42,791 nucleotides of DNA. It comes from Polyangium sp. 15x6 (GTDB lineage Bacteria > Myxococcota_A > Polyangia > Polyangiales > Polyangiaceae). Below are positions 12,665 to 42,130 of the stretch, one piece after another. The stretch covers positions 1-42,791 of the forward strand of contig NZ_JASBQE010000102.1 in NCBI RefSeq assembly GCF_029960785.1. The letters are read 5' to 3'. The notes below the pieces were generated by a model, which did no database searches, was not told the origin of the DNA, and saw nothing but the letters and a program-made list of their open reading frames with translations. The translations under genes and the position numbers were made by a program. Position 1 is the first letter of the stretch. Each line of letters opens with the position of its first letter.

Positions 12665-12675
12665 GCAGGTATCGA

Positions 12676-13011
12676 TTACTTACGCGCGGCGACCTGCGCC
12701 TGGATCTGGCGGCGCAGCTTCCGCACCTCGGTCTGCGGGAGGTAGCGGAGCAATTCGGCGGTCTTGGCGCGCTCGTCCTCCTCGGCGAACGTGAGGAGGT
12801 ACATCGGAGGCACGCCGAAGCCCTCCGCGAGGCGCGCGATCGTCTGGATCGTGATCGCGGCGAGGCCGTGCTCGACGCTGGAGAGATGGCCCTTCGAGAG
12901 CGCGCTCGCGTCGGCGAGGGCGCCGAGGGACATGTTGCGCTCCTTGCGAAGCGCGCGAATACGGGTACCGACCTGGAGGGCAAACGGCTCGGGGGTGGAA
13001 CGTCGCGGCAT
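12676..13011 (-). CDS. XRE-family HTH regulator, copy 1
   Basis: A 111-residue DNA-binding protein. A lambda-repressor-type helix-turn-helix spans residues about 13-70: RIRALRKERNMSLGALADAS, ALSKGHLSSVEHGLAAITIQTIARLAEGFGV. After it comes PPMYLLTFAEEDERAKTAELL and a basic C-terminal helix (EVRKLRRQIQAQVAARK). The start at 13011 (MPRRSTPE) is chosen over a longer frame because it coincides exactly with the start of the paralogue at 13707 and the upstream codons are not conserved. There is no Shine-Dalgarno; instead a small GNRA hairpin lies 20 nt upstream. Two GGAC-N7-GTCC dyads upstream suggest autoregulation or regulation by the paralogue. No partner toxin or enzyme is adjacent. Confidence 0.85.
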   Translation of the reverse strand: MPRRSTPEPFALQVGTRIRALRKERNMSLGALADASALSKGHLSSVEHGLAAITIQTIARLAEGFGVPPMYLLTFAEEDERAKTAELLRYLPQTEVRKLRRQIQAQVAARK

Positions 13012-13358: not shown

Positions 13359-13371
13359 CTGTGGGATGCGA

Positions 13372-13707
13372 TTACTTGCGAGCGGCGACCTGCGCCTGGA
13401 TCTGGCGGCGCAGCTTCCTCACCTCGCTCTGGGGCAGGTAGCGGAGGAGCTCGGCCGCGTGGGCGCGCTCGTCCTCCGCCGCGAACGTGAGGAGGTACAT
13501 CGGAGGCACGCCGAAGCCCTGCGCGAGCCGGGCGATCGTGCCGATCGTGATCGCGGCGAGGCCATGCTCGACGCTCGAGAGGTGGCCCTTCGAGAGTTCG
13601 CTCGCGTCGGCGAGCGCCGCGAGCGACATGTTCATCTCGTAACGGAGCTCGCGGATACGGGCGCCAACCTGGAGTGCAAACGCATCGGGAGTGGAACGTC
13701 GGGGCAT
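13372..13707 (-). CDS. XRE-family HTH regulator, copy 2
   Basis: A 111-residue paralogue of the protein encoded at 12676-13011, with identical length and mostly identical sequence. The helix-turn-helix (RIRELRYEMNMSLAALADAS, ELSKGHLSSVEHGLAAITIGTIARLAQGFGV) and the C-terminal basic helix are almost unchanged. Substitutions cluster in helix 1 (LRKERN to LRYEMN), at ASALS/ASELS and in the linker (EEDERAKTA to AEDERAHAA). The recognition-helix segment KGHLSSVEHG is identical in both, so the two proteins should bind the same DNA sequence and could form heterodimers. Its control region carries a stronger palindrome than copy 1. Start chosen as for the paralogue. Confidence 0.85.
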   Translation of the reverse strand: MPRRSTPDAFALQVGARIRELRYEMNMSLAALADASELSKGHLSSVEHGLAAITIGTIARLAQGFGVPPMYLLTFAAEDERAHAAELLRYLPQSEVRKLRRQIQAQVAARK

Positions 13708-40360: not shown

Positions 40361-41305
40361 ATGAAGCAGCTCGTGTTGTTCTCGGGCCGGCCGGAGCCCG
40401 AGCTCCCCGAGATCGAAGCGGACCGCGCGATCGCCGCGAAGCTCGACCCAACCGTTCTCCTCGGGACGTCCACATGGACGTTCCCGGGATGGCGAGGAAT
40501 TTTCTACCCCAAGGATATCCCCGAGCGGGAAATCACCACGCACGGGCTACGGCTCTACACGCGTAACCCACTGTTTCGCACCGTAGGGATCGATCGGAGC
40601 TACTACACGCCGCTCCGCGTCGAAGAGCTCGCGCGGTACCGCGACGATCTGCCCGACGGCTACGGCTGCGCGATGAAGGTGTGGAGCGGAATCGTGGCGC
40701 GAAGAGATCCGAGCACGAACCAACGCTCCCCCTGGTTCCTCGATCCGCGCGCGTTCGAGGAGCGCGTGCTCGCGCCGATCGAGAAGAGTTTTTCCCGGAA
40801 CGTAGGCGTGTTCTTGTTCGTGCTGTCGCCGATGCGCGCCGAGGATCGGATGGATGCCGAGGAGCTCGCCGAGCAGCTCGATCGGTTCTTCGAAGCCGCG
40901 CCGCGGTCGTTTCGTTACGCCGTGGAGCTCCGGAACCCAGAGCTGCTTTCGAGGGCGTACCTCGACGTGCTCGCGCGGCACGGGGTGACGCACGTGCTCG
41001 GGCTGTGGGAACGAATGCCCACGATCGGCCGGCAACTCGCGGTGCCGAAGATCCTGACGGCGCCGCTCGTCGTGTGCCGGTTGTCCATACGGCCCGGCGA
41101 GAGGTACGAGGAGCGGCGGCGGATCTGCGCGCCGTTCGACAAGATCGTGGCCACGGACGAGGAGACCCGCGCCGACGTCGCGCAAGTCGCGGCCCGATGC
41201 GCCCGCGAGGGGCGGAGCCTCATGGTGCTGGTGAACAACAAGGTGGAAGGATCAGCGCCGCTCACGGTGCGCGCGCTCGGACGACGGCTCGTGGCAGGCC
41301 GCTGA
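40361..41305 (+). CDS. DUF72 family protein (YecE-like)
   Basis: A 314-residue protein with the DUF72 TIM-barrel-like signature: GTSTWTFPGWRGIFYPKDIPER near the N-terminus (variant of GTSGWxYxxWxGxFYP), VELRNPELLSRAYLDVLARHGV in the middle and MVLVNNKVEGSAPLTV near the end (NNHxxGxAPxxA-like). DUF72 proteins are of uncertain function, sometimes linked to UV-damage-endonuclease-like folds. The N-terminal 30 residues are an extra, variable arm. The ATG at 40361 follows GTGTTTAC without a Shine-Dalgarno. A GC-rich hairpin and a structured element follow it. Confidence 0.82.
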   Translation: MKQLVLFSGRPEPELPEIEADRAIAAKLDPTVLLGTSTWTFPGWRGIFYPKDIPEREITTHGLRLYTRNPLFRTVGIDRSYYTPLRVEELARYRDDLPDGYGCAMKVWSGIVARRDPSTNQRSPWFLDPRAFEERVLAPIEKSFSRNVGVFLFVLSPMRAEDRMDAEELAEQLDRFFEAAPRSFRYAVELRNPELLSRAYLDVLARHGVTHVLGLWERMPTIGRQLAVPKILTAPLVVCRLSIRPGERYEERRRICAPFDKIVATDEETRADVAQVAARCAREGRSLMVLVNNKVEGSAPLTVRALGRRLVAGR

Positions 41306-41327
41306 GTCGTACGTCCCGATCGGAAGA

Positions 41328-41351
41328 AGGCGGCCCCCCGCGGGTCCGCCT
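41328..41351 (+). terminator. Hairpin downstream of the DUF72 gene
   Basis: Arms AGGCGG (41328-41333) and CCGCCT (41346-41351) enclose a GC-rich inner stem, 23 bp after the stop at 41305. A pyrimidine run TCTCCTCCTT follows. Confidence 0.45.
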
Positions 41352-41377
41352 CTCCTCCTTAATGATCAGGACTGCTC

Positions 41378-41516
41378 AGAGGGTGTTCTTGCATCGACCG
41401 CACCGCGGTCGATGCACCAGAGGTCCAGGGCTGTGCCCTGGTTCGGGTCCAGGGGCGAAGAGCCCCTGGTCGGGTCCGGGGTGAAACCCCGGCGCTACGC
41501 TGTGGCAGCACCCTCT
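41378..41516. ncRNA. Five-way-junction-like structured element between convergent genes
   Basis: Outer arms AGAGGGTG (41378-41385) and CACCCTCT (41509-41516) enclose four perfect hairpins. Stems: 41391-41401/41405-41415 (11 bp, loop ACC); 41425-41431/41435-41441 (7 bp, loop TGT); 41449-41456/41462-41469 (8 bp, loop GAAGA); 41476-41482/41486-41492 (7 bp, loop GAA). Spacers include repeated TCGGGTC. The right outer arm overlaps the last bases of the OMP gene. It may be a repeat element (REP-like), a bidirectional terminator or a structured RNA; strand unresolved. Confidence 0.5.
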
Positions 41517-42130
41517 CAGAAGCCGCCGCCGATCTGGGCGAGCAGGGACCAGGTGTCGGCGCCGGGCTCGTCGTTCACCGGCGTGATGGGCGAGCCCATG
41601 TTGTCGAAGAAGGCCGGGCGGTAGTTGAAGCGCGCGCCGACCTTGATGTTCTCGGTGAGCATACGGTCCGCGCCCACGCCGACGGGGACGACGAGCGTGA
41701 AATTGTCGCCGTAGTCGCCCGCGAAACCGGCGTAGCCGATGCCGCCGACGATGAAGGGCTGCAGCGGGAGGCGGTCCGCGTCGGCGAGGTTGTAACGGAC
41801 GCCGGCGTCGAGCGACGTCATCACGAGCTGGGTGCGTGTGTCGGCGCGGGTGTTGGTGCTGCCGAGGTAGTTGCCCTCGATCGCCCAGCGATCGTTGATG
41901 GCGCCGGTGACGCGCACGTTCCAGCCTGGGCCGAGGGCGCCGACGCCGCCCAGAAATCCGACGATGCCGGCGCCGCCTTCCACGGAGAACGACGTCGGCC
42001 TCGGGATCCCGCGGATGGCGGGCTGATCGGCAGGAGGCAGGCCTGCCCGGGTGTTCTGCGCGTGGGCCAACGACGGCGCTCCCAGTGCGGCGAAAGCCAC
42101 GAGGGCCGCCACGATTCGTCCGGTGGTCAT
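41516..42130 (-). CDS. Outer-membrane beta-barrel protein
   Basis: A 204-residue exported protein. The signal peptide (MTTGRIVAALVAFAALGAPSLAHAQ) is followed by about 180 residues with alternating hydrophobic beta-strands (SFSVEGGAGIVGFLGGVGAL, VRVTGAINDRWAIEGNYLG, LVMTSLDAGVRYNL, FIVGGIGYAGFAGDY, IKVGARFNYRPAFF) and a C-terminal aromatic residue (GGGF), typical of small 8-stranded OmpA/OmpX-like barrels. The ATG at 42130 has GGAGGA 6 nt upstream. No enzymatic motif is seen. It converges on the DUF72 gene across the structured element. Confidence 0.78.
   Translation of the reverse strand: MTTGRIVAALVAFAALGAPSLAHAQNTRAGLPPADQPAIRGIPRPTSFSVEGGAGIVGFLGGVGALGPGWNVRVTGAINDRWAIEGNYLGSTNTRADTRTQLVMTSLDAGVRYNLADADRLPLQPFIVGGIGYAGFAGDYGDNFTLVVPVGVGADRMLTENIKVGARFNYRPAFFDNMGSPITPVNDEPGADTWSLLAQIGGGF

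Follow-up and report, generated by a model that had tools for sequence, protein, structure and literature searches.

A hairpin-array repeat of Polyangium sp. 15x6, probably a genus-restricted MITE, at stop codons between convergent genes

To judge from sequence comparison, the 137-bp hairpin array between two convergent genes of Polyangium sp. 15x6 is probably one copy of a MITE that is confined to the genus, owes its movement to an IS1031-like transposase of the IS5 family and is lodged between convergent genes at stop codons. It is short and non-coding, present in many copies, bounded by terminal inverted repeats (TIRs), flanked by a target duplication of fixed length and polymorphic as an insertion among relatives; the 3-bp duplication of a TNA target is, in addition, that of the IS1031 group. 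The window referred to below is the whole 42,791-nucleotide stretch of DNA analysed. In it the element occupies 41379-41515, with TCA at 41376-41378 and again at 41516-41518, and the span 41378-41516 proposed in an earlier note is thus the element together with one base of each copy of the duplication. The features are as follows.

40361..41305, plus strand: DUF72 protein gene (PF01904), the convergent neighbour
41376..41378: left copy of the target duplication, TCA, read from the sequence and repeated at 41516-41518
41379..41515, plus strand: mobile element, 137 bp, hairpins in the order A-B-C-D, with TIRs; missing at the orthologous site of all 5 relatives compared
41379-41386 / 41508-41515: terminal inverted repeats, identical with the 8-bp outer stem; innermost pair T-G
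41390..41416, plus strand: hairpin A, 12-bp stem and 3-nt loop, swapped for other palindromes in other copies
41425..41441, plus strand: hairpin B, 7-bp stem, one pair changed on both sides among copies
41449..41469, plus strand: hairpin C, 8-bp stem, three pairs changed on both sides
41476..41492, plus strand: hairpin D, 7-bp stem, the most constant module among copies that were selected by D
41516..41518, minus strand: right copy of the target duplication, TCA, which is the TGA stop of the minus-strand gene, read from the sequence
41516..42130, minus strand: outer membrane beta-barrel protein gene (PF13505), the gene whose stop codon was struck

The four hairpins and the closing 8-bp outer stem, which had been noticed from the sequence, are borne out at 41379-41515 by the sequence and by fold predictions far beyond those of shuffled sequences. 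For the RNA of 41370-41525 the predicted energy is -93.9 kcal/mol on the plus strand (z -5.72) and -95.2 kcal/mol on the minus strand (z -8.06), and the fold of 41379-41515 with DNA parameters has a z of -6.52; in each case 0 of 200 shuffles were equal. The plus-strand RNA fold adds a few pairs to the B and D stems and makes a small fifth hairpin of the sequence that starts CGCTACGC. Stem lengths of 7, 8 and 7 bp for B, C and D agree with the earlier reading, and hairpin A has 12 bp in the fold rather than the 11 that were then counted. A plain intrinsic terminator was rejected for its missing T tail, there being no GC stem with a T run on either strand of 41250-41650.

The repeat is abundant, as a BLASTN comparison with the rest of the genome, one of the checks proposed at the outset, makes plain. 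With a 156-nt region as query, its own genome (275 contigs, 13.38 Mb in all) gives at least 80 matches from 40 scored candidates out of 370; of these matches 40, the window copy counted, are about 100-156 nt long and 86-100% identical. At 151 places in that genome hairpin D is present with no more than one mismatch, and the reversed pattern is present at 0. The other check proposed, a covariance model (R1) of hairpins B-C-D built from 42 of 61 distinct sequences, finds at least 150 copies there, a lower bound because 150 is the number scored, and the stems covary. In a search of 59 relatives' genomes, each of the six that belong to the genus has at least 77-79 matches (79 candidates scored per genome), and one genome outside it, G028, has a single match with an E of 7e-4. 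In a search of 108 family genomes, those six have at least 43 each (43 of 43 candidates scored) and 1 of the 102 outside the genus has a single match, with an E of 4e-6; the G028 match is absent from this second search, in which fewer candidates per genome were scored. Twelve contigs of the draft (G000 C18, C36, C41, C57, C60, C73, C115, C144, C155, C173, C184 and C201) start inside or beside elements, so that copy number in the draft may be underestimated.

Mobility is seen at orthologous sites. At the window site both flanks match in relatives and the element is absent in 5 of 5, with a single TCAGAAGCC at that point. For 24 sites of the genome, with 1 to 5 orthologous regions each and 105 in all, comparison shows 26 regions with a copy in the same orientation, 4 with an oppositely oriented one, 14 with a variant that has another D hairpin, and 61 in which no copy was recognised. 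This last class, for which hairpin-D patterns within the final 420 nt were the criterion, is an upper bound because diverged or short copies can be missed; it includes one region with TIR-like ends only (L149) and one with another hairpin (L200). Two of the oppositely filled regions are composite (L193, L213) and two are clean single cases (L125, L137), and opposite filling of one spacer (L125 versus L014, L137 versus L007) implies separate insertions or an inversion. At the site orthologous to L017 the species differ in the A module and in single or double form, with similar D ends, and differing modules and forms at one site may, in our reading, reflect module exchange.

Other repeats share these spacers. 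The variant of the 14 regions belongs to a sister family (L154, L160, L161, L208, L209, L217) whose hairpin D is roughly CCTGGGGCAAAGCCCCAG, and which occupies the same orthologous spacers. A different multi-hairpin repeat ending in CATCGAGCGGTTGTCAAACCGATCGATGTTCTAG is nearly identical in L122 (G003) and L202 (G004), where it lies in the last 160 bases before the anchor, at sites orthologous to two unrelated copies of the Polyangium sp. 15x6 genome. Its final CTA is at the position of the genome's own stop TCA in L202, and about 20 nt from the stop in L122.

The ends of most hairpin-D copies are worn. An inverted end, GAGGGTGTTCCACAG, is seen in longer copies; it also encloses a 121-bp MITE whose interior is different, and two 147-bp copies in G005 with hairpins in the order D-C-B-A (L232, L234). 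With at most 2 mismatches per end, 28 elements among the loci in hand have it on both sides, of which 17 are the 121-bp type, with the same TIR and the other interior, and 3 carry hairpin D. Identical flanking 3-mers are present in 18 of the 28 and all are TNA (TCA 9, TGA 8, TAA 1), the perfect duplication being missing in the other 10; a flanking repeat of 4 or 5 bp is found in 0 of the 28. With up to 3 mismatches allowed, a looser earlier count had yielded 17 elements, and in 11 of these the flanking 3-mers were identical, being TGA or TCA in every case. The duplicated triplet is preceded by C in 16 of 18 cases and followed by G in 14 of 18. A 5-bp duplication of CTCAG, which the window copy by itself suggests, was considered and rejected: 4- and 5-bp repeats fail in 28 of 28, and C-TNA-G is the usual target context. 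Behind D, CACCCTCTCA is exact in 6 of 73 half-elements of the genome and has at most one mismatch in 12 of 73. The proposed link of B-C-D to these TIRs rests on the 3 elements, the window copy and such remnants, and the worn-ended copies would be old insertions of the same origin. At L228 (1515-1700, G005) a tandem repeat of GCGTAGATGGGGTTTGGGGCGTAGCTCGGCTTGCCGAGCGTAGCCCCAA directly adjoins a 121-bp MITE, and a stretch related to this repeat is present inside hairpin C of L040.

Stop codons are a recurrent neighbor of these ends. Of the 28 elements, 23 adjoin the stop codon of a long coding-like frame and 5, by the test used, do not. With three pairs among the 28 orthologous (L228/L271, L241/L277, L242/L269), the distinct sites number 25, and 20 of them adjoin a stop; the duplication is perfect at 16 sites, of which 15 adjoin a stop. 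Stop codons make up 32 of the 112 non-coding TNA sites of the window; at that rate the binomial chance is about 1e-7 for 20 of 25 sites and 8e-8 for 15 of 16. These tests use our own codon-usage gene calls, and the association describes where copies occur, rather than an enzyme preference, because loss of insertions upstream of genes pushes the same way. The broader set of hairpin-D copies is similarly placed. Where 600 nt are available on both sides, a converging stop is within 40 nt of D in 43 of 55 half-elements, within 60 nt of A in 19 of 55 and on both sides in 17 of 55; among control intervals shifted by 400-520 nt, 1 of 199 has a D-side converging stop and 0 of 199 have both. TAG cannot arise from TNA insertion, and 12 of the 43 D-side stops are TAG; TGA accounts for 29 of 43, as against 20 of 27 in ordinary use in the window, and is thus not enriched.

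A candidate for the mobilising enzyme is present in the genus. Members of one family searched for, IS5-family genes with DUF4096 (PF13340), give 15 matches spread over all six genus genomes. The frame at L259 matches the NF033580 IS5 family transposase model with 216.5 bits (cut-off 110) and has TAA|GAGGGTGTTCATCAGGA at its upstream end; at L256, where the gene is split over two frames, it is the downstream end that mirrors this sequence, with TTA; at L266, where the gene is also broken, the end is TCA|GAGGATGTTCATCA. In two of these three the first ten bases of the IS end are those of the MITE. No IS with both ends matching was found among the 15 loci, the second end having been sought, and not found, at L259, L256 and L266. 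A TIR starting GAG, a mark of the IS1031 group, is shared by the element. Within the IS5 family, IS1031 members favour TNA targets and generate a 3-bp repeat, TGA in the instance given (PMC12016507). An IS5-family transposase would accordingly be a fitting mover of the element.

The steps envisaged are simple. The ends, an imperfect inverted repeat GAGGGTGTTC(CACAG), would most likely be cut and joined by an IS5-family DDE transposase of an IS1031-like group, and insertion at a TNA trinucleotide would give the 3-bp duplication. Among TNA triplets TGA and TAA are stops, and TCA and TTA are stops on the opposite strand. Duplication of such a triplet would rebuild the stop before the element and leave the protein unchanged, and with the stop rebuilt and the protein intact, copies could persist between convergent genes, just behind the stops, in a spacer that would have no promoter to break. 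Stop regeneration together with a promoterless spacer would explain both place and copy number without any function. The element is, then, likely to be carried by the genome without harm, and its hairpin interior is unusually elaborate. This amounts to a simple, testable rule, that a mobile element can spare its host when a 3-bp target duplication regenerates the stop, and the matched filled and empty sites of six related genomes are a natural set for the effects of hairpin arrays on convergent transcripts.

Known systems provide partial parallels. With the IS1031 group and its MITEs the element shares the 3-bp TNA duplication (available part of PMC12016507) and a nearly identical end in IS5-family genes of the genus; it differs in that the window-type element has no transposase, a four-hairpin interior and copies concentrated on stop codons. 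The RUP, BOX and SPRITE repeats of pneumococcus are likewise small TIR elements mostly in spacers. RUP has been assigned to IS630-Spn1 by TIR likeness and a TA target (portion of PMC2229807 available), and SPRITE is enriched near gene 3′ ends (portion of PMC3049150 available); they are unlike the present element in that, in these portions, the target is TA or a duplication is not established, and duplication of a stop codon is not described. MITEAba12 is of similar size and has a TIR in common with a resident IS, and is unlike it in having 9-bp duplications, with no such hairpin array described in the part of the source at hand (PMC6382973). In the titles and abstract openings of open-licence literature on MITEs and transposons at stop codons, REPs in myxobacteria or Sorangium, Polyangium repeats, and IS1031 and TNA, no description was found of a MITE that duplicates stop codons, or of the present element.

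Comparison of the interiors brings in the question of function. The set consists of 73 half-elements of the genome with a readable flank, every one chosen by hairpin D; 67 served as references (L033, L040, L079 and any whose upstream flank was too short being excluded), 65 of the 67 form set A1 (L022 and a single half of L064 were dropped as well), and 61 are distinct (L022, L033, L040 and duplicates excluded), of which 42 were used in set A2. The modules follow in the order A, B, C, D, and the end behind D resembles CGCTACGC, with an exact match in 30 of 73. Hairpin D and the linkers are near-constant among copies, D partly because copies were picked by it, and the recurring linker pointed out in the earlier note is real, TCGGGT-type linkers being found again in other copies. 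Hairpin A is replaced wholesale by other palindromes. Stems B and C vary on both sides and stem D is without variation. Over 42 copies, 99.2% of pairing cells are paired (94.1 in shuffles), and the covariation score, from 37 cells with changes on both sides in stems B and C, is 0.124 as against 0.036 in shuffles, with 0 of 500 reaching it; the cells are not independent events because the copies are paralogous. Neither the pairs with two-sided change (4; reached by 287 of 500 shuffles) nor the further pair types (7; reached by 149 of 500) are unusually numerous. Larger elements consist of two half-elements inverted around a spacer (L061-L064, L066). At L065 (1050-1440, G000:C206) four tandem units of about 86 bp, each hairpin A with spacer and part of B, adjoin one full half-element.

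It is possible, though doubtful, that such elements have become domesticated 3′-end cassettes, their hairpins kept for ending, insulating or stabilising convergent transcripts, a reading that is compatible with a MITE origin. The two-sided changes in stems B and C, with a covariation score that no shuffle reaches, are what would be expected of it, as is the tight location behind converging stops, and the hairpin interior would on that account have been kept by selection rather than mutation bias. Any activity of the hairpins might lie in stopping transcripts by Rho or pausing, in shielding 3′ ends or in the transposition itself. Against this, the T-rich tail is absent by the intrinsic-terminator scan, two-sided pairs and pair types do not exceed shuffles, quasi-palindrome correction and gene conversion also yield matched stem changes, and the constancy of D is partly selection of copies. 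Moreover, 61 of 105 orthologous regions lack a recognised copy, which implies that few sites need the cassette. A bolder extension, and on the sequence evidence an unlikely one, is that a TNA-targeting transposon lineage acted as a ‘stop-codon lander’, duplicating the stop at each insertion and leaving behind the gene a hairpin cassette that was then kept and remodelled by module exchange, and would now be fencing off convergent transcription genome-wide in one myxobacterium-like genus.

Kinship with REPs and BIMEs, that is GTAG-tagged hairpins moved by a RAYT (a Y1 tyrosine transposase) and arranged in inverted pairs, is quite improbable. Some likeness is undeniable: hairpin D has GTAG at its foot in 33 of 73 half-elements, inverted pairs of half-elements exist, and the convergent spacers are shared, REPs being found mainly between unidirectional and convergent genes according to the accessible part of PMC3733652. 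However, GTAG is missing from 40 of 73, so that there is no constant tag, no RAYT was found in the Polyangium sp. 15x6 genome, and the window-type element has TIRs with a 3-bp duplication. The genome's one Y1_Tnp match spans 59 of the 121 positions of the model, and the surrounding 3,174 bases contain no hairpin D and no TIR (at most 3 mismatches). A RAYT-driven REP was therefore rejected as a candidate, for want of a repeat near the partial Y1 match and of a constant GTAG. Hence of the ‘mobile REP-like repeat’ suggested in the earlier note, ‘mobile repeat’ holds, given the many copies, the covariation and the empty orthologous sites, and ‘REP-like’ in the strict sense is not supported. A structured RNA, the other suggestion in that note, is a possibility on the covariation of the stems, though Rfam has no match to the element. 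At L081 (about 1459-2049, G000:C74) there is a partial match to an IS200-type transposase, the rest of the frame being unrelated.

A free-standing structured small RNA is a highly improbable reading in spite of the strong fold and the covariation, as 41250-41650 has no promoter-like site (sigma-70 consensus being the sole pattern scored), hairpin A differs wholesale among copies, a copy is missing at many orthologous sites, and the element has no Rfam family above the gathering score, the single Rfam match in the window being a tRNA elsewhere; a known RNA family was rejected on that last result.

The preferred reading remains that of a MITE moved by an IS1031-like transposase. Elsewhere in the window are two direct copies of 300 bp, 12673-12972 and 13369-13668, which are 86% identical and sit on adjacent minus-strand frames by the codon-usage gene calls.
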